Below, piece after piece: positions 9,295 through 51,846 of a stretch of DNA of 64,000 nt. The DNA comes from an uncultured Acidobacteriota bacterium (GTDB taxonomy: Bacteria; Acidobacteriota; Blastocatellia; Pyrinomonadales; Pyrinomonadaceae): assembly GCA_937873515.1 (NCBI GenBank), contig CALMYB010000017.1, positions 62,001 through 126,000 of the forward strand. Reading direction: 5' to 3'. The notes under the pieces were generated by a model, which saw only the letters and a list, made by a program, of their open reading frames with translations, was not told where the DNA came from and made no database searches. Positions within the stretch are counted from its first letter, which is position 1. The number at the start of each line of letters is the position of its first letter. Both the position numbers and the translations under genes were made by a program.

Positions 9295-10233
9295 TCACGC
9301 CCGGTTAAGCATTCCCGTCCACCTGTATTCCGGCTTCTCAAAGCCTTCATCCAATTTCTTCAGGATAAAGTCGGTCATATTATCCACGATCCAGCGGTGA
9401 TTATATTCACCGACCGAGGCGAGTTCTGCGTCGGGTGCCGGATTCATAAAGTCGATCGCATAGGGAATGCCGTCCTTGATCGCGAATTCGACCGTATTCA
9501 GGTCGTAGCCAAGTGCTGTGCAGAGGGTCTTTACGTCCTGTTCGACACGAGCGTGAAGTTCAGGCGTCAGGTAGTTATCGACATTCACATACTGCATTCC
9601 GGAAAGGTAGGGCTTCGACGGGTCATAGGGCATAATAAGCACCTTTTCCTTGCCGACACAGTAGCAGCGGACGAATTGATCGTATTCGATGCCTTCCTGC
9701 AGCGTCATGCAAAGCGTCCCGGACTCGTTGTATTCTCGGAGCAGTTCCTCAGCGTTGTGAAGTTTTGAAACGTTCTTCCAACCGCCGCCGTCGTGCGGCT
9801 TCAAGAAGGCCGGAAAGCCGATGTATTCGACGATCTCATCCCACTTGAGAGGGAACTCGAGGTTCCGAAGCGATTCGCTCGTAATGTCCTTTATGTAACT
9901 CTGCTGCGGCAGAAGAATGGTCTTCGGGACGGCGACGCCGATCTTCTTGGCAAGCGAAAAGTTGAAGAACTTGTCGTCCGCCGACCACCAGAACGGGTTG
10001 TTGATGATGTAAGTTCCTTCGAGCGCCATACGCTTGAGCATCGCCCTGTAATACGGAACCTCGTGCGAAATGCGGTCGATGATGACGTCGTATCGCTTTG
10101 GCTCGTCCTCGCGGATGCCGCCGACGCTGACCATTTCGGCGGTTACTTTACCGTCGCCCTTCTCATTGATGGAGTTAATAATCGATTCCGGGAACGTAAC
10201 TTCGCGTCCCACTAATATTCCTACTCTTTTCAT
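9295..10233 (-). CDS. ATP-grasp family ligase-like protein
   Basis: A 312-residue protein with the ATP-grasp plan. The N-terminal part begins K-R-V-G-I-L-V-G-R and a central segment reads G-F-P-A-F-L-K-P-H-D-G-G-G-W, with the nucleotide-binding Lys and Gly-rich loop; acidic metal ligands near the end lie in A-I-D-F-M-N-P-A-P-D. RimK- and DdlB-like enzymes of this superfamily join a carboxylate to an amine using ATP. The substrate cannot be told from sequence. It stands alone, with about 110 bases to the gene at 10345. The start at 10233 has no strong ribosome site. Confidence 0.75.
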   Translation of the reverse strand: MKRVGILVGREVTFPESIINSINEKGDGKVTAEMVSVGGIREDEPKRYDVIIDRISHEVPYYRAMLKRMALEGTYIINNPFWWSADDKFFNFSLAKKIGVAVPKTILLPQQSYIKDITSESLRNLEFPLKWDEIVEYIGFPAFLKPHDGGGWKNVSKLHNAEELLREYNESGTLCMTLQEGIEYDQFVRCYCVGKEKVLIMPYDPSKPYLSGMQYVNVDNYLTPELHARVEQDVKTLCTALGYDLNTVEFAIKDGIPYAIDFMNPAPDAELASVGEYNHRWIVDNMTDFILKKLDEGFEKPEYRWTGMLNRA

Positions 10234-10344
10234 ATAGATATTCGGATCCCCTAGCTTTGGTCGAGCCGGCGATAATCAAGCCTAAAACAAAAATTTTATA
10301 AGAAACCAATGCGTCCTGCAACGAACCACTCGCAATGAGACTGG

Positions 10345-11199
10345 TTAAGATTTATTCGGTTCGGGAAGCAGGTCGTAATTTCCCATTTCGCGGTTGTAGC
10401 TGTCGAGTTTGCCCATTTCGTCGGCGGTCGCGTCGAGCATCTGTTTGGTCATCGCGATCGAGTCGGAAAGCTGCTCGAAATCAAGCAGCGAGAACTTCTC
10501 GGGTGTCGTTATGGTGACGATCTCGTCGTTGAGGTAGCTGAAGAAATTTTCGATGGATTGAAGCTGGCCCTCGACGAGTTTTACGCTGCGTTCGATCTCG
10601 TCGAAAGATGCGATGCGGCGTTTCAGGATCTCGACATTCGTCTGCTGGATTCGGCGGGTCTTGTCGTCGCCCGCACCTTCCATAGCACGAAATGCCTGTG
10701 AAAGTTGGTTGTGGACGGCCTGGCGATTGATCGTTTTCAGGTGTTGTTTTCGCCGTCGGTAAGTGTCGAGAAGGTCAACGAAATCTTCCCAACGCTGATC
10801 CAAAGCCTGTAAATTCGAAGGTAAACGGCTTGCGCCGGTGAATTTTCGATAGTTCTCCTGGATCTTGTTCTTAAGCCAGCGAAGATATTCGACGGCCTCA
10901 CGTTCACGCGGCGTAAACGTTTTGATCAAACCCTCGCGGTTCGCAACGTGAGCGGCGAGCAGTTTCTGCTGGTGACGCTCTTCGACGAGGCGGCGATAAG
11001 CCGGCAGGTTCGGAACCGTGACAAGGTATATCGCTTCGGCGACCAAAGCGATCAGTAGCGGAATGACGCTGCCGGTGAATGCGGCAGCAGCAAGAAAGCC
11101 TGCGAGCGCCCAAAAATTGAAAGGTTCCTTCAAAGCTTCCTTAGCGTAGCTTTGGTTGAACCTTTCTACATCCTGCCGATATTTGGCGATGTCAGCCAT
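10345..11199 (-). CDS. membrane coiled-coil protein downstream of pspA-like gene
   Basis: A 284-residue protein with a two-span hairpin near the N-terminus (about 28-62), then long charged helices likely to form coiled coils (for example E-R-E-A-V-E-Y-L-R-W-L-K-N-K and D-E-I-E-R-S-V-K-L-V-E-G-Q). Not assigned to a known family. It starts 28 bases after the PspA/IM30-like gene on the same strand, so the two are probably cotranscribed. A role as membrane partner of the PspA-like protein in envelope maintenance is inference from this linkage. Confidence 0.7.
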   Translation of the reverse strand: MADIAKYRQDVERFNQSYAKEALKEPFNFWALAGFLAAAAFTGSVIPLLIALVAEAIYLVTVPNLPAYRRLVEERHQQKLLAAHVANREGLIKTFTPREREAVEYLRWLKNKIQENYRKFTGASRLPSNLQALDQRWEDFVDLLDTYRRRKQHLKTINRQAVHNQLSQAFRAMEGAGDDKTRRIQQTNVEILKRRIASFDEIERSVKLVEGQLQSIENFFSYLNDEIVTITTPEKFSLLDFEQLSDSIAMTKQMLDATADEMGKLDSYNREMGNYDLLPEPNKS

Positions 11200-40994: not shown

Positions 40995-42782
40995 GTGAGC
41001 GAGAGGTATCCGAGCGGCAGGGTGGTTACGAACACCTACGATGCAAACGGCCGTCTTGCGGGCGTCGCCGACGGTTCACGCACGTATCTCTCGAACCTGC
41101 AATTCCAGGGCCTCGGCGGCAGTCTCTCGTCATTGTCGTATGGCAATGGCACGGTTCAGACGTTCGGCCTCAACGACCGTATGCAAATGATCTCGCAGGA
41201 GCTAAAACGCGGTACCGAAACCTTGCAGAAGTACGCGTATGGTTATGGCCAGTTGAACGCTTCGGGTACACTGGACACGACGAAGAATAATGGGCAGTTG
41301 TCGCAGATCGAGAGTTGGATCGGTACGGCGAAACAGTGGACGCAGAAGTTCAGTTATGACGATGTTGGGCGCTTGAAGCAGTCTGCGGAGTACAAGGGGA
41401 CGGATGGTTCGTTGACGTATCGGCAGGTGTTCGATTTCGATCGATTTGGGAATATGTATCGCAAGGCGGCGAGTAACCCATCGACGGGGCAGGCGAATCC
41501 TTTGCCTTATACGCAGATCGAGGAGAGCGATATTTCGAAGGCGACGAATCGGTTTACCACGCAGACGACGTATGACGAGGCGGGGAGTGTTGTTTCGGAT
41601 GCGAAGTTTCGCGGGATGGGTTTTGGGTACGACGCGAACGGGCGCATGGTGAAGGCTACGAAGGCGAATGTGCCGGACGCGCTTTCGGTCTATGACGCGG
41701 CGGGGATGCGTGTGGCGGAGCGTGTGAACGACGTTTGGCGTTTCAGCATCTATGACATTGGGGGTAAGATCGTCGCGGAATACGGCGGCGTTGTGGCGAC
41801 GGACGAAGGCGGCGTGAAATATCTCCTCTCAGATTGGCAAGGCTCGACGCGTGCTATGATGAGCAACGGCGGTTTTGTAAAGGCGAGGATGGACTACACA
41901 GCGTATGGCGAAGAGATCGGGGTGGGAACAGGGCTTCGCACGAACGCCCAAGGTTTTGATTCTGGGATAAACCCGCGTCAGCAATATGGCCTCACCGAAC
42001 GCGACGACGCAACGGGCCTTGATCACACCTGGTTCCGCAAGAATGAAGGCCGTGCAGGCCGTTGGACAAGCCCCGACCCTTACCTTGGCTCAATGTCGGT
42101 ATTCGATCCACAAAGCTTCAACAGATTTTCATACGTCGCCAACCAACCCACAAACTTCATCGACCCAACAGGACTTAGGATTGAACAGGTTTGTCAGTGG
42201 GTTCGCTATGGATCGGCATCCTATACCGACCCAGAGGGAATCACCCATTACATGCCTGGATTTGAGCGTCGTGAGTGCACACTAATCTATATTGTGGATG
42301 CTCCTGGCGGTTTTTCTTTTCCGATTGCTGGCGGCGACACGGGGGTGTTTGACCCAGGGAGGCCGACCGATCTTGGGCAGGATGCGCGCAATGCAACGTA
42401 CAAAACGTGTCTCAAAGATAAGGTCAGGAATCGAGTAAATGCGGTGAATCATCGACGAGATGACGAACTAAAGCGAAACATTCTCGGCTCGGTCGCTCCG
42501 TCGCCGCTGCCAGCACCGCTAGGTTGGTTTTCCCCCGTTGCAATGGCTCCCGGAGGGGTAGTGCTGCCTGACCAGACTGACGAACAGCTTACTGCGAATT
42601 ATCTAATCGGAATGTGGAACCCGAAAGACCTGGGACCTATCGGTGCGGGAGCAAATATACTTGTCGCTGGAGCAATGGAGGGGACCTACGGCTATTACAA
42701 TCACCGCAAGGCTTTAGCGCAAGCCAAAGCGATTACGGCCGCTGATAAGAAAGACTGTCTCCGCGAAGCGAACAATCAATAA
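40995..42782 (+). CDS. Rhs-repeat protein, 5'-truncated, with C-terminal module 1
   Basis: At least 595 residues of Rhs/YD repeats (units such as Y-D-A-N-G-R-L and F-D-R-F-G-N), then the Rhs core ending D-P-T-G-L (about residue 393-397), then an unrelated C-terminal module of about 195 residues. YD-type protein continues upstream of the GTG at 40995, at least to 40926 (frame E-Y-D-L-E-Y-G-Y-N-L-A-G-Q), with no start, so the gene is probably a 5'-truncated remnant. The tip module carries C-Q-W-V-R-Y-G and two Cys near C-T-L-I-Y; no toxin family is recognised. The small lipoprotein gene follows after three bases. Confidence 0.75.
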   Translation: MSERYPSGRVVTNTYDANGRLAGVADGSRTYLSNLQFQGLGGSLSSLSYGNGTVQTFGLNDRMQMISQELKRGTETLQKYAYGYGQLNASGTLDTTKNNGQLSQIESWIGTAKQWTQKFSYDDVGRLKQSAEYKGTDGSLTYRQVFDFDRFGNMYRKAASNPSTGQANPLPYTQIEESDISKATNRFTTQTTYDEAGSVVSDAKFRGMGFGYDANGRMVKATKANVPDALSVYDAAGMRVAERVNDVWRFSIYDIGGKIVAEYGGVVATDEGGVKYLLSDWQGSTRAMMSNGGFVKARMDYTAYGEEIGVGTGLRTNAQGFDSGINPRQQYGLTERDDATGLDHTWFRKNEGRAGRWTSPDPYLGSMSVFDPQSFNRFSYVANQPTNFIDPTGLRIEQVCQWVRYGSASYTDPEGITHYMPGFERRECTLIYIVDAPGGFSFPIAGGDTGVFDPGRPTDLGQDARNATYKTCLKDKVRNRVNAVNHRRDDELKRNILGSVAPSPLPAPLGWFSPVAMAPGGVVLPDQTDEQLTANYLIGMWNPKDLGPIGAGANILVAGAMEGTYGYYNHRKALAQAKAITAADKKDCLREANNQ

Positions 42783-42785
42783 GTG

Positions 42786-43358
42786 ATGTTAAGAAAGACG
42801 AGTTTGATCTTAGTATTTGCTATGGCACAAATCGGGTGCGTATCACCGATGGCGGAATCGCAAAATGGAGTAGCTCCGCGGGCGACTCCGTCCGACGAGT
42901 ATGCAGCCTTCGTAGTGAACCTTGAGACGGGAGACAAGATGCTCTCTTCAGGTGATTTCGATAAAGCCGAAACGAATTTCCAAGAAGCCAACAAGATTGC
43001 AACGAAGCACCACTGGATAAATGAAACTGTATCTTCGACTACCGAACTAGGGAAGGTCTCGGTTGCGAGACGCGATCTAACTTTGGCTGAAAAGTACTAT
43101 ACCGAAGCTGTCCGGATTTGTCAGAGCAGTCCTGAGTGTGATGTTGATCAGCTCGACGTAGCGGTAAGCTATTTAAACCTTTTCTACGTATTTCGTATAA
43201 AGACTCCTGGAGAAGCTGCTGCGGTGCTCACCCGCCTAGATTCATCCGACAAGTTTGCAAGTGGTGAGTGCGACAAATTCATCTGTGAACAGTGGAGTTG
43301 GATAGCCTCTAGCGGCGGAGACGCATCTCAGAGGCCGGAAAAGTGCAAAAGAAGGTAA
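42786..43358 (+). CDS. small TPR-like lipoprotein after Rhs module 1
   Basis: A 190-residue protein with a lipoprotein signal (lipobox Q-I-G-C, Cys18) and TPR-like helices (D-F-D-K-A-E-T-N-F-Q-E-A, L-T-L-A-E-K-Y-Y-T-E-A). Six further Cys lie in the last third. It starts immediately after the Rhs stop (ATG 42786; a GTG at 42783 is possible), where immunity genes of Rhs toxins sit. A periplasmic lipoprotein would be an atypical immunity protein unless the toxin acts in the envelope. Confidence 0.6.
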   Translation: MLRKTSLILVFAMAQIGCVSPMAESQNGVAPRATPSDEYAAFVVNLETGDKMLSSGDFDKAETNFQEANKIATKHHWINETVSSTTELGKVSVARRDLTLAEKYYTEAVRICQSSPECDVDQLDVAVSYLNLFYVFRIKTPGEAAAVLTRLDSSDKFASGECDKFICEQWSWIASSGGDASQRPEKCKRR

Positions 43359-43365
43359 AAAGCCC

Positions 43366-44346
43366 ATGAACACGCGGAGTGTGCCAGAATCGACGCGTGC
43401 TATGATGAGCAACGGCGGTTTTGTGAAGGCGCGGATGGACTACACGGCGTATGGTGAGAATATCGGAACAGGAACAGGGCTACGCACTACTGCCCAAGGC
43501 TTCGATTCTGCCATCAATCCGCGTCAGCAATATGGTTTGACCGAACGTGATTCCGCCACAGGATTAGATCATACCCCATGGCGGAAAAATGAAAATAGAG
43601 CCGGAAGATGGACAAGTCCAGATCCATTTACAGGCTCTGCAAGCATCGGCGATCCACAATCATTCAATCGTTACTCATACGTTGGTGGTGACCCGATAAA
43701 TTGGATAGATCCCTCAGGCTTAAATGAAGCAACGCCAGTCGAAGGCTGCTCTTACAGCGGAAAGAGAGACCATAACGGAGAGCCGGTTTACGATGGCCAT
43801 ATTGTAAATGGTCGATGTGTGTCAGACTACGGCACAGTGCAAGTTTTTGCGGGAGATTTAAGCTGGCTATTTGGTGGCGAATCCACTTGGAATCCTGTCG
43901 GACAGGGCCATGGCTTCGAGGAGCTAGGTGGTGGCAGTCCTACAGGAGGCGGCACGACACAAACTGGCGGCGGTAAATATCCAACTCCGCGAACCCAGCA
44001 GGACGATCTCAACTCGTGCATTGGGAAAGCGATTGCGAAATACCTTTCGAACGTTGCTAAGGGAACCGGCCAAACTTATCTTGGCCTTAGTATGGTTGCC
44101 GGAGGCGGTGCTATTGCAGCTGCGGGATACCGCTTTGGAATTAAGCATCTCGGCAGTGCAATAAGTGCCGGTGAAGGAATTAATGCCTTGGCCGCTCCGC
44201 ACCATATATCAAAAATTGCTTTAATCGGTGTTCCTTTTTTCGCTGCGGGGTACGCGCTTGCTGACAGGGGGGTAAATAAACTTCGGTTAGCCCCCAGTTC
44301 CTTAGACGCGGAAGTTCGACACTGCAGAGAGGTCTTTAAGAGCTGA
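43366..44346 (+). CDS. orphan Rhs core with C-terminal module 2
   Basis: A 326-residue protein. Residues about 9-120 repeat the Rhs core of the 40995 gene (S-T-R-A-M-M-S-N-G-G-F-V-K-A-R-M-D) nearly base for base, ending at D-P-S-G-L. A different C-terminal module follows: a Gly-rich linker and two hydrophobic segments (about 245-262 and 284-303), so it may insert in or cross a membrane. No YD repeats precede the core, so it is an orphan tip cassette, as at many Rhs loci after recombination. No toxin family recognised. Confidence 0.6.
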   Translation: MNTRSVPESTRAMMSNGGFVKARMDYTAYGENIGTGTGLRTTAQGFDSAINPRQQYGLTERDSATGLDHTPWRKNENRAGRWTSPDPFTGSASIGDPQSFNRYSYVGGDPINWIDPSGLNEATPVEGCSYSGKRDHNGEPVYDGHIVNGRCVSDYGTVQVFAGDLSWLFGGESTWNPVGQGHGFEELGGGSPTGGGTTQTGGGKYPTPRTQQDDLNSCIGKAIAKYLSNVAKGTGQTYLGLSMVAGGGAIAAAGYRFGIKHLGSAISAGEGINALAAPHHISKIALIGVPFFAAGYALADRGVNKLRLAPSSLDAEVRHCREVFKS

Positions 44347-44366
44347 TTGTCAGCATTATTTGAGAC

Positions 44367-44639
44367 ATGACTATTTTTCTGTTATCGATAATAGCCCTGT
44401 TCGGCCTATATTCTATTTTTGTTGCGATCCTCCTAATGGCTACCGGGAGGTACTCGAATAACGGGAAGGGAGCTGTCGTAGCGTTACTCACTGCAATCGC
44501 GGAGATTGGGATCTCTGTATCAGCCATTTACGTGTACATCAACGCGATCCTCTCCGATATCACGCTATGGTTTGCAGTTGGCGTGCTTCTAGGCTTGAAC
44601 ATTCTTGTGTTCGTACTCTGGGGAAAGGTCAAGTATTGA
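44367..44639 (+). CDS. small three-span membrane protein after Rhs module 2
   Basis: A 90-residue protein with three hydrophobic segments (about 2-25, 36-58, 65-85). It follows the second Rhs module by 20 bases, the place of an immunity gene, and a membrane location fits a partner of a membrane-active tip (inference). It overlaps the next Rhs fragment by four bases. Confidence 0.5.
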   Translation: MTIFLLSIIALFGLYSIFVAILLMATGRYSNNGKGAVVALLTAIAEIGISVSAIYVYINAILSDITLWFAVGVLLGLNILVFVLWGKVKY

Positions 44640-45505
44640 CGCAAAAAACGGCGAAGCAGTACACTCAGAAGTTCGTTTACGACGCGGTTGGCCGTCTCGA
44701 ACGCGAAACGGAATATCGCGGTGACAATGGGAATCAGGTGTACAGTCAGAAATTCAGCTACGACCGTTTTGGGAATCGATATTTGAAAGCTTCGGAGAAT
44801 TCGGCGGCGAACGATCCGCTTTTTCCGTTCTTTATCGAAGAAAATAACGTCGATCGTGCAACCAATCGGCTCGCCTCGAACACAAATACGAGTTACGACG
44901 AATCGGGCGGTGTCGTTACGGACAACAAGTTTCGCGGACTGAAATATTTTTACGATGCGAACGGGCGTATGGTGAAGAGTTCGACGTTGAGCGATGTCGA
45001 AGTTGGGATCGCGGTGATGGATGCGGCGGGGAACAAGGTTGCGGAGCGTGTGAATGATGTTTGGCGTTTTTCGGTTTATGATGCATTTGGGAGGCTCGTG
45101 GCGGATTACGGAGGGGCGACAGCGACTGACGAGGGCGGTGTGAAGTTTGTGCAGCAGGACATACGGGGTTCGACGCGGTGCGTTACTAGTTTAACCGGCA
45201 ATGTTCTTGCGCGTATGGACTATCAGGCTTTTGGCGAACAGATACCTAACAACATCGGCCAGCGTACCGCAATCGGCTTCACGAACGCCGACTCCATCCG
45301 CCACCGCTACGCTCTCACCGAGGACGACACCGGCACCGGCCTTGCCGACACCTGGTGGCGCAAACTCGAAAACCGCTCCGGCCGCTGGACCTCCCCCGAT
45401 CCTTACAACGGCTCAATGTCCCTCGGCGATCCACAGTCATTCAACCGCTACTCAAAGCCGACTGTCGGCGGCTATCGCCGCCTCCAAGGTTGGTTTGGGC
45501 GGTAG
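44636..45505 (+). pseudogene. third Rhs fragment, truncated at both ends
   Basis: About 290 residues of YD repeats and Rhs core (Y-D-A-V-G-R-L-E-R-E-T, then A-R-M-D-Y-Q-A-F-G-E-Q). The core breaks off after D-P-Q-S-F-N-R-Y-S, where the intact copies go on to the D-P-x-G-L motif; here it continues into 18 unrelated residues and a stop. No proper start exists at its left end (frame opened from 44567 or TTG 44636). A remnant left by recombination. Confidence 0.65.
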
Positions 45506-48779: not shown

Positions 48780-49172
48780 ATGAGTTTAGAGGCACTCGGA
48801 ATGGTCGAGACCAAGGGATTTGTCGGTGCTGTCGAGGCGGCCGATGCAATGGTCAAGGCTGCGAACGTCCAGCTGATCGGTAAGGAATATATCGGCGCCG
48901 GATATGTAACGATCTTCGTCCGCGGTGATGTCGGGGCGGTAAAGGCCGCAACTGATGCGGGTGCGGCCGCTGCACGACGCGTAGGCGAGCTGATCAGCGT
49001 CCATGTCATCCCTCGGCCTCACTCCGAGGTCGAGCGCGTTCTGCCGAAAGGCGGCGCCGTCGGGTACAGTCCTGACGAGAAAGCCCTTCGCGGCGGCGGA
49101 AAATCCCTGACCTCCGGCGATGCGGGTTCGTCTGCGATCTCGAGCGAAGGCAGCAAGAGCCGCTCGAAGTAG
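48780..49172 (+). CDS. hexameric BMC shell protein, first
   Basis: A 130-residue single-BMC-domain shell protein (about 3-86), of the kind that tiles polyhedral bacterial microcompartment facets. Family motifs: [19 protein letters not shown], and the ending H-V-I-P-R-P-H. The pore-lining loop reads Y-I-G-A-G, close to the usual K-I-G-S-G. A Ser/Lys/Gly-rich tail of about 40 residues extends beyond the domain, long for a BMC-H. A perfect hairpin follows (49191). It opens the locus. Confidence 0.95.
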
Positions 49173-49256: not shown

Positions 49257-50993
49257 ATGGCCGACAAGGACCTTCTCGCACAACAGGAAGCTCGTGATGC
49301 CGTTGACGCGGCATTTGCGGCGTTCTCCGTCTTGGCGTCTTTCGACCAAACGAAGGTCGATTCAATTTGCGATGCGATGGCGAAGGCGGCCTTGGCGGAT
49401 TGTGCCCGACTCGGTCAAATGGCGTGTGAGGAGACGGGATACGGTAGGCCGGAAGACAAGTTCGAGAAGAATCGGTTCGCTGCCGAGGACGTCTGGAATT
49501 ATTTCAAAGGCCTAAAGACCGTGGGCGTCGTCAACGACTCGAACAGCATTGTCGAGATCGTGAGCCCACGCGGCGTGGTGGCTGCGATCATTCCTTCGAC
49601 GAATCCCACGTCCACGGCGATCTTCAAGATCATCATTGCGATCAAATCGCGGAACACGATCGTGCTGTCGCCGCATCCGGCAGCTGCAAAATGTATAGCG
49701 GAGATAACGCGAATAATGCGGGACGCAGGCATCAATGCCGGCCTTCCTGCGGACGCGATCCGCTGCCTGACGGTTTCGACCATCGAGGGAACTGAGACCT
49801 TGATGAAACACAAGCGGACGGCCGTGATCCTCGCAACGGGCGGAACGGGCCTTGTTCGCGCCGCCTATTCTTCGGGTAAGCCCGCGTTTGGCGTCGGGCC
49901 CGGCAACGTGCCGGTTTTTATTGAGCGGTCGGCGGATCCTGCGAAAGCAGTTGCCGACATATTGACGGGCACTTGCTTTGATAACGGCACGATCTGCGCA
50001 AGCGAGCAGAGCGTCGTCGTCGATGCACCGATCGAAGCGGCAGTCCGTGCGGAATTTGCGCGCCAAGGCGGACATTTTCTTTCGCCTGCAGATGCAGATG
50101 CTGTCGCGAAGATCCTTTTGACGCCGCAGAGAACGCTGAATCCCGGCATCGTCGGGAAGGCCGCGGCGTACATCGCTCAGCTTGCAGGCGTCAGCGTTCC
50201 TGAAGGTACGCGATGTCTGCTTGCCGATTGCGCGGGTGTCGGCCGGGAGTTCCCGTGGTCGGTCGAAAAGCTTTCGCCGACACTTGCATTCTTTGTTGCC
50301 GACGGCGTTAAAGAAGGTGCCGCCCGATGCGAGGAAATTCTTCGCTTCGGCGGAATGGGACACACTGCCGGAATGCACACGAAAGATCGGGAAATGGCCG
50401 TTGAGTACGGCAAGCAGATGCCTGCCGCACGCGTGATCATCAATTCGCCGACAACTCACGGTGCGATCGGATTCTCTACGGATCTTTCGCCGTCGATGAC
50501 GCTCGGTTGCGGTTCGTGGGGCGGCAACGTAACTTCCGACAATGTTTCGCCTCTGCATTTGATGGACGTAAAGCGCGTTGCGTTCGAGACCAAGCCGGTC
50601 AACGCGGCGAGTGCGTCTGCGAAACCTTCGCTGCAGACGGTGTCAGCCCTTGCTCGGCCAAAGCCGCGGCGCGAAGAGATCGCCAAGATAGTGGATACAT
50701 TTTTGCGAAATCGCCCCGAGGCCGTTCTTGAACTAGAGCCGGTGAATCCGCTGCCGACGCCCCCACGTCCTTCTCAGCCGGCAGAAACCGGAGCGAAAGA
50801 GACGATAATTCATCACGTTTACGCCGAACCGGTCATTGAGAAAGGGCCGCCTCAGCCGGTAGATTTCGTGAGCGAAGACGACGTTCGGCGGGCGGTAGAT
50901 CGCGGCGAGAAGATCTACATAAACAAGAAGACGATCGTCACGCCTTCCGCCCGGGATCTTGGTGAGGAGAAAGAGATTTTTGCACGAGTTTAG
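49257..50993 (+). CDS. CoA-acylating-type aldehyde dehydrogenase with long C-terminal extension
   Basis: A 578-residue protein. Residues about 1-455 match the acetaldehyde/propionaldehyde dehydrogenase (EutE/PduP/AdhE N-domain) type, with catalytic Cys247 in N-G-T-I-C-A-S-E-Q; such enzymes turn aldehydes into acyl-CoA inside microcompartments. It does not begin with a helical targeting peptide. A C-terminal extension has an amphipathic helix (about 471-486, [16 protein letters not shown]), a Pro-rich link, and a 42-residue tail with V-T-P-S-A-R-D-L-G (561-569), resembling the EutT/EutQ-type start. Four bases separate it from the next gene. Substrate unknown. Confidence 0.92.
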
Positions 50994-50997
50994 ATAG

Positions 50998-51414
50998 ATG
51001 GAAGCTGTTGCCGAAAAACCGGTCTGTGCAGAATGCGGGGCAGATGTCCGCGAAGGGACGCGCTTTTGCTACGCATGCGGAAAGCCTGTGAACGGCCCTG
51101 CGCTCGAGGCACCTGCCGAAGAGATCGCGGCTCCGGCCGATCCGAATGAATGTTCGAGCGTTAAGGCTGATCTCGAAGCCGCTTTTGCACGGGCCGAGCA
51201 AAGAACGTCGGCTGAAAGTGAATCGGATGACGGGAAGATGAGCCGCGTCAGAGCGGCACGCGAGCGTAAGGCCTCGCGCGTCGCCAAGCGGAAGACCGTC
51301 CGCTCGGAATGGGTTGAGCCGGTCGATGCTTCCGGGTTCGGGCTGATGGCCTTCGCAGGGGTTCTATTCATCATCACGGCGATCATTGTTCTCTATCTGG
51401 AGGTCTTTAAGTAG
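50998..51414 (+). CDS. zinc-ribbon tail-anchored protein in microcompartment locus
   Basis: A 138-residue protein of unknown function. The start has a double-Cys zinc ribbon (C-A-E-C-G-A ... C-Y-A-C-G-K), a charged central region, and a single C-terminal span (about 114-135). With the zinc ribbon in the cytoplasm it would be tail-anchored in the inner membrane. Located between the aldehyde dehydrogenase and the microprotein gene, it could tether cargo or shell to the membrane (inference). Confidence 0.75.
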   Translation: MEAVAEKPVCAECGADVREGTRFCYACGKPVNGPALEAPAEEIAAPADPNECSSVKADLEAAFARAEQRTSAESESDDGKMSRVRAARERKASRVAKRKTVRSEWVEPVDASGFGLMAFAGVLFIITAIIVLYLEVFK

Positions 51415-51510: not shown

Positions 51511-51525
51511 TCTTTGGAGAAATTT

Positions 51526-51846
51526 ATGCAGGCTTTGGGAATGGTCGAATGTTTTGGCTTGGTCGCGATGATCGAGGCTGCGGATGCGATGGTGAAGGCC
51601 GCTAATGTCAAGCTCGTAGGGTACGAGAAGATCGATGCGGGCCTCGTAACTGCGATCGTGCGCGGTGAGGTCGGTGCTGTAAAGGCGGCGGTGGATGCCG
51701 GTGCGGCCGCGGCAAGAAAGGTCGGCCAGGTAACGGCAACTCATGTCATTCCTCGTCCCCACGAGAATGTTGACGATGGAATTCCTGTCCTTGTAACGGG
51801 CGAGACCACGCGCAAGAAGATCTCAGGCTCTGTCCCCGAGAAATAG
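51526..51846 (+). CDS. hexameric BMC shell protein, second
   Basis: A 106-residue single-BMC-domain protein (about 1-85). It has [19 protein letters not shown] and H-V-I-P-R-P-H. The pore loop reads K-I-D-A-G, with an acidic residue in place of the usual Gly, so the pore would differ in charge from the first shell protein. ATG at 51526, with GGAG six bases upstream; a TTG at 51514 would overlap that site. No vertex (pentamer) gene follows; the next genes are convergent. Confidence 0.94.

Follow-up and report, generated by a model that had tools for sequence, protein, structure and literature searches.

The window analyzed here, a stretch of 64,000 nucleotides from an uncultured bacterium of the Acidobacteriota, carries on its forward strand a satellite locus with the gene order BMC-H shell protein, aldehyde dehydrogenase (ALDH), zinc-ribbon protein, and second BMC-H shell protein. 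The ALDH (49257..50993) is a 578-aa ORF for an acylating enzyme, kin to EutE and the TIGR02518 family, with an encapsulation peptide (EP) and a mini-domain at its C terminus. Directly upstream lies the first BMC-H gene (48780..49172; PF00936, 3.6e-29), which by synteny is the neighbor of the ALDH in almost all loci and whose product is a candidate docking partner of the enzyme. Past the C-terminal end of its shell domain, this shell protein also continues for about 40 residues, among which Ser, Gly, and Lys are abundant. Downstream are the zinc-ribbon protein (50998..51414; PF13240, 1.5e-06), which has a hydrophobic C-terminal segment and is not counted in the mechanism proposed below, and the second BMC-H protein (51514..51846; PF00936, 1.5e-29). 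Elsewhere in the window, several RHS/YD-repeat-like ORFs lie next to one another at positions 40995-45505 and share core motifs that are nearly identical at their C termini.

The catalytic core of the ALDH matches PF00171 in the family profile search and contains the active-site cysteine, Cys247, which is invariant in an alignment of 40 ALDH sequences. The model for acetylating acetaldehyde dehydrogenases, TIGR02518 (length 488), aligns over its full length to residues 3-480 with 561.2 bits; as this falls below the curated cutoff of 620.1, the protein is a relative rather than an equivalog member of that family. The same family search gave no match to the EutQ cupin (PF06249). A first reading of the sequence, made without database searches (hereafter the sequence-only reading), had proposed an extension carrying two elements and running from a family end near residues 455-460 to residue 578. 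The two-element extension holds up in its coordinates and description, and the layout recurs across the phylum; the core itself stops at about residue 445 (the alignment to the AdhE model extends to 443). The TIGR02518 alignment reaches residue 480 because that model includes EP-like sequence.

Past the core, linker 1 (residues 449-470; 50601..50666, + strand) is predicted to be disordered, with pLDDT below 50, and is followed by the EP helix (residues 471-486; 50667..50714, + strand) and by linker 2 (residues 487-534; 50715..50858, + strand), which is variable in length and likewise predicted to be disordered (pLDDT <50 over 485-528). Over the 40 sequences, the mean majority-residue fraction drops from 0.82 in the core to 0.32 in each of the two linkers, while the EP has 0.68 and the tail that follows 0.78. 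The Pro-rich linker recognized earlier corresponds to linker 2, with 12 prolines in its 48 residues. The helix at 471-486, which had been put forward as a targeting element, is modeled by AlphaFold2 as helical over 472-484, and its conserved positions are I475, A476, V479, D480, F482, and L483. Its 12-residue core (473-484) has a hydrophobic moment of 0.80, where shuffled sequences average 0.34 (p 0.0004), a window-dependent value, as the full 16-residue span is not significant against shuffles and the moments of other EPs mostly are not either. For this reason, the identification rests on position, conservation, and the published type I BMC ALDHs, for which a C-terminal EP is already described (PMC8217296). 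As in those enzymes, an amphipathic C-terminal helix follows a linker, and residues 471-486 are an ordinary EP.

The locus is a satellite locus of an ACI-type BMC. As described by Sutter et al. (2021), this type occurs in Acidobacteria, its main locus has a class II aldolase (pfam00596) with a C-terminal EP, a BMC-P triplet accompanies at least one BMC-H, a hydroxyacid dehydrogenase (pfam00389/02826) belongs to the locus, and the ALDH always sits in a satellite locus (PMC8217296). The genome at hand, from a host in the Acidobacteria, shows an EP-bearing class II aldolase, a BMC-P triplet with a BMC-H, and a satellite ALDH: the ALDH is on contig C17, and the main locus, on contig C10 at 414-416 kb, codes for the EP-bearing class II aldolase-like enzyme and, at 415-416 kb, for three BMC-P proteins (PF03319) and one BMC-H protein (PF00936). 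The aldolase, a 266-aa ORF (L117, 9171-9971) that ends in SLTRDELIELLSQAVNLG and adjoins a BMC-H gene, was assigned to class II by its sequence and relatives. A genome search for the EutQ cupin found none in this organism.

A folded mini-domain and its relatives

The tail of the ALDH (residues 535-578; 50859..50990, + strand) contains a TPxARD motif and is of the EutQ-H1/H2 type by profile matches, predicted fold, and conservation. Modeled alone with AlphaFold2, its 44 residues reach a pLDDT of 96.8 in a predicted beta-alpha-beta-beta-alpha-beta fold with helices at 540-549 and 563-571, and within the full-length model the same segment retains a pLDDT of about 82-92 beyond the disordered linkers. 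Six of its positions are invariant in 39 diverse sequences; F537 and, within T-P-x-A, T562, P563, and A565 are invariant residues of the tail. The tail is, by these models, an autonomous folded mini-domain. The sequence-only reading had delimited a tail at 537-578; the presence of the element stands, with its start now at about 535, and it is a folded mini-domain and not a peptide. The accompanying remark that it did not look like a usual EP also proved sound: an EP is a single amphipathic helix of 15 to 20 residues, and this contrast with a folded alpha/beta domain rules out the tail as a second EP.

No solved relative of the module was found. Against PDB sequences, the tail profile matched only at the level of chance (best E 0.31), with designed TIM barrels among the matches. 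Fold searches of the PDB with the tail model turned up nothing beyond weak matches to unrelated structures (Foldseek E 0.71 and VIA-align Z 4.7 at best), and the PDB sequence matches to EutQ cover its C-terminal cupin only. Searching the tails against Pfam gave one weak match to E3_binding, from one member (0.042), which does not support the idea that the tail resembles the peripheral subunit-binding domain of pyruvate dehydrogenase.

The sequence relatives, on the other hand, all lie in BMC families. When 39 tails were compared with 18,950 NCBIfam families, the families matched by more than one tail were TIGR02536 (35 tails, best 9.7e-6), EutQ (14), EutT (12), and two PduM models (5 each). 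Comparison of the tail profile with single Escherichia coli sequences by hhalign recovered EutQ (4.2e-5) and EutT (2.6e-5), in both cases exactly at the N terminus; the EutQ match spans about 35 residues at about 31% identity and aligns to EutQ 4-40. An HMM of the ALDH tail, run over the eut region of E. coli, picked out exactly EutQ and EutT, with the other proteins of the operon at about 0 bits or less, and run over the Clostridioides difficile eut locus it picked out exactly the TIGR02536 protein and the cobalamin adenosyltransferase, the rest being at about 0 bits or below. A genome search with the tail profile uncovered weaker copies at the N termini of BMC-type RpiB (also in the present genome), DeoC, and class II aldolase; these carriers often adjoin BMC-P or BMC-H genes and often have an EP in the same protein. 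The RpiB, DeoC, class II aldolase, EutQ, and EutT modules each scored above all 150 of 150 column shuffles. The PduM C terminus (NCBIfam TIGR04493/NF011957) was likewise matched by several sequences, and against plasmid records the tail gave E values of about 7-10, with three of the four matches being TIGR02536 proteins of eut operons. The suggestion made from sequence alone that the tail resembles a EutT/EutQ-type region is thus upheld by the NCBIfam scan, hhalign, the shuffles, and the operon tests. Homology of the tail with termini of EutQ, EutT, TIGR02536 proteins, and PduM is well supported by these profile comparisons.

The architectures in which the module occurs differ. The N-terminal region of EutQ from Salmonella and E. 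coli comes closest, as H1/H2 are homologous to the tail and an EP-like element is present in the same chain after a flexible stretch. EutQ is, however, a separate linker protein with the order module, linker, EP-like helices, and cupin, whereas in the ALDH the module is at the extreme C terminus of the core enzyme itself. PduM (TIGR04493/NF011957/PF15953) also combines an EP with a C-terminal module (about residues 115-153), but it is a small stand-alone structural protein, with the EP at its N terminus and the module at the C terminus of a nonenzymatic body. The TIGR02536 protein of Gram-positive eut operons, the strongest family match of the tail, has its module at residues 164-202 of 207 and, in C. 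difficile, an EP-like N terminus, and is again a stand-alone protein rather than a fusion to ALDH. In EutT the module, at residues 2-46, is N-terminal on a cobalamin adenosyltransferase. Finally, the type I BMC ALDHs with a C-terminal EP (EutE of Gram-positive eut loci) share the catalytic core and the C-terminal EP; among BMC ALDHs, the EutE-type enzyme of C. difficile (489 aa) and those of two Acidobacteriota genomes (G056 and G203) stop after the EP, without linker 2 or the mini-domain.

The EP and the satellite position of the ALDH were already known. The tail is not mentioned in the available text of the ACI account (PMC8217296), and in the open PMC literature we found no description of a EutQ-type module fused to a core ALDH or of a sequence link between PduM, EutQ, EutT, TIGR02536, and the enzyme tags; as late as 2025, PduM was stated to lack known homologs by sequence outside Pdu compartments (PMC12108088). 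The main novelty would accordingly be, as judged from sequence, an unnamed BMC-restricted mini-domain that links PduM, EutQ, EutT, and enzyme cargo.

Distribution and association with BMCs

Close homologs of the ALDH all come from Acidobacteriota/Pyrinomonadaceae MAGs, and the order of core, EP, variable Pro/Ala-rich linker, and tail persists in relatives within the phylum at identities as low as about 47%. Leaving fused AdhE aside, 125 genomes have an ALDH of 45% identity or more, and the tail is present in 123 of them, the other two being G056 and G203, in which the enzyme stops after the EP. Two MAGs have an ALDH tail out of frame with its core (L042:8993-9730 and L084:9530-11011), breaks that are probably assembly or sequencing errors. 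Two more distant free-type ALDHs (L207 and L208) continue for about 35 residues past position 442 with neither EP nor tail. Across the phylum, a strong tail match was found in 125 of 396 genomes, 124 of which have a strong BMC-H match, a count over related and not independent genomes; the exception, G188, has a tail with only a weaker BMC match (6.6e-7). The possibility that the extension is ordinary in free, non-BMC ALDHs, which had been named as the observation that would undo the proposal, is rejected on these distributions and the two free-type relatives compared. A broader profile, A4, found the module in 13 of 43 BMC genomes lacking the ALDH tail and in none of 60 BMC-free genomes, although four of the 13 (G156, G171, G242, and G345) supplied rows to the profile and are therefore circular, and two (G091 and G296) are marginal. 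The other strong A4 matches fall on RpiB, DeoC, aldolase, or proteins resembling TIGR02536. In G056, whose ALDH has the EP only (L204, L212), a separate TIGR02536-like protein bears the module.

This distribution bears on whether the tail has a role in localization at all. Its compact fold, its invariant TPxA motif, and its place beside catalytic domains would suit a domain that binds a metabolite or cofactor and thereby regulates or supplies the enzyme, without any part in localization. We regard this as distinctly improbable, since the module occurs on enzymes with unrelated substrates as well as on PduM, which is described as a structural protein, and is absent from the BMC-free genomes searched (0 of 60). 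The idea that the EP alone matters and the tail is an inert stabilizer of the C terminus draws on the EP-terminated ALDHs of G056, G203, and the C. difficile eut locus; it is weaker still, and very unlikely, since the tail is about as conserved as the catalytic core while the linkers diverge, and is retained in 123 of the 125 close ALDHs.

A proposed attachment of the core to the shell

We favor, with moderate confidence, a sequence-based reading in which the ALDH would serve as its own EutQ-like linker: the EP would bring it into the enzyme core, and the tail would dock this core on the shell. The amphipathic EP would condense the ALDH with other EP-bearing cargo, such as the main-locus class II aldolase, and linker 2 would serve as a flexible 48-residue Pro-rich tether between the EP and the mini-domain. 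The latter would dock on the inner face or the inter-tile surface of BMC-H facets, and in this genome, which has no EutQ, the docked tail would hold condensed core and shell together. Metabolosome EPs mainly drive cargo condensation (PMC12339742), so that shell attachment is left to another element. Salmonella EutQ works at the shell through residues 9-41 (H1/H2) and binds cargo EPs through residues 62-99 (H3/H4); deletion of either pair of helices causes shell and cargo to separate, and EutQ lacking 9-41 gives polar aggregates of the core away from the shells (PMC12487888). Pull-down of EutM requires the EutQ N terminus, and EutM K53, D57, and Q64 are of importance, the substitution Q64K having abolished EutQ binding (PMC4827028). 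The joining of core and shell also requires PduM, which has an N-terminal EP (PMC9132943, PMC12108088).

The tail of the ALDH has two predicted helices, as does the H1/H2 region, and by analogy with EutQ we infer that it binds the ACI shell proteins. The sequence-only reading had left three candidate partners, namely the shell, a partner enzyme, and the zinc-ribbon protein; of these, the homology to EutQ H1/H2 speaks best for the shell. In the three BMC-H proteins of this genome, the residues equivalent to EutM K53 and D57 are conserved and Q64 is replaced by Arg. The former lend weak support, being widely conserved, and the Arg at Q64 calls for caution. The shell-anchor reading is also weakened by the occurrence of the module on EutT, which has no established shell role.

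The zinc-ribbon protein is the least credible of the partners proposed: its gene starts 4 bases past the ALDH stop codon and its hydrophobic end could suggest a tether of the enzyme or compartment to the membrane, but a CxxC...CxxC neighbor occurs in only 46 of 94 loci and in none of 19 distant ones, where the tail is nevertheless kept.

A partner on the cargo side is a more serious matter. The mini-domain could instead be a core-side hub that strengthens the core by binding the EPs or the enzyme bodies of other cargo, while other proteins would touch the shell. Such a role would fit the presence of the module on several cooperating enzymes (ALDH, RpiB, DeoC, and class II aldolase) and the strong binding of cargo by the module-bearing PduM (PMC9132943). 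Moreover, PduM followed the cargo and not the shell when PduB 1-37 was missing (PMC9132943), which keeps this a real rival. We nonetheless hold it to be unlikely, because EutQ H1/H2 showed no NMR shifts with a cargo EP, and EutQ lacking H1/H2 remained with its cargo but was no longer at the shell (PMC12487888).

A broader proposal, which in our estimate has an even chance of being right, is that the TPxARD module is a BMC-restricted common shell anchor of metabolosomes, usually accompanied by an EP. Depending on the lineage, it would be carried by dedicated linkers (EutQ, PduM, and the TIGR02536 proteins) or fused to core enzymes (ALDH, RpiB, DeoC, and class II aldolase), with the ACI ALDH acting as its own linker. 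EutQ and PduM were recognized as linkers only between 2022 and 2025, and how enzyme cores join BMC shells is an open question on which these observations bear. The occurrence of one module at the PduM C terminus, in EutQ and EutT, and in enzyme tags makes a shared mechanism of shell attachment directly testable. A folded shell anchor of 44 residues would also offer engineers an alternative to aggregation-prone encapsulation peptides. Further, Gram-positive Eut BMCs have a EutQ without the first helices (PMC12487888), and the broader proposal, if true, would explain how they cope with this short form, the module being on the TIGR02536 protein instead in C. difficile. In that organism (NZ_CP149734.1; L223:7410-8135 and 10075-10542), the EutQ-like cupin lacks the module and the nearby TIGR02536 protein bears it; it is possible that the linker role was handed from the one to the other.

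The present genome holds a second satellite pair, on the minus strand of C10 at about 283.4-285.1 kb (L168:8401-10109), in which RpiB is encoded next to DeoC. This RpiB has an N-terminal EP-like helix together with the same mini-domain, and the DeoC has an N-terminal EP-like helix. Similar RpiB-DeoC pairs are seen in several related genomes. As DeoC produces acetaldehyde, it could be the missing aldehyde source of the ACI compartment, which would hint at the breakdown of deoxyribose-phosphate.
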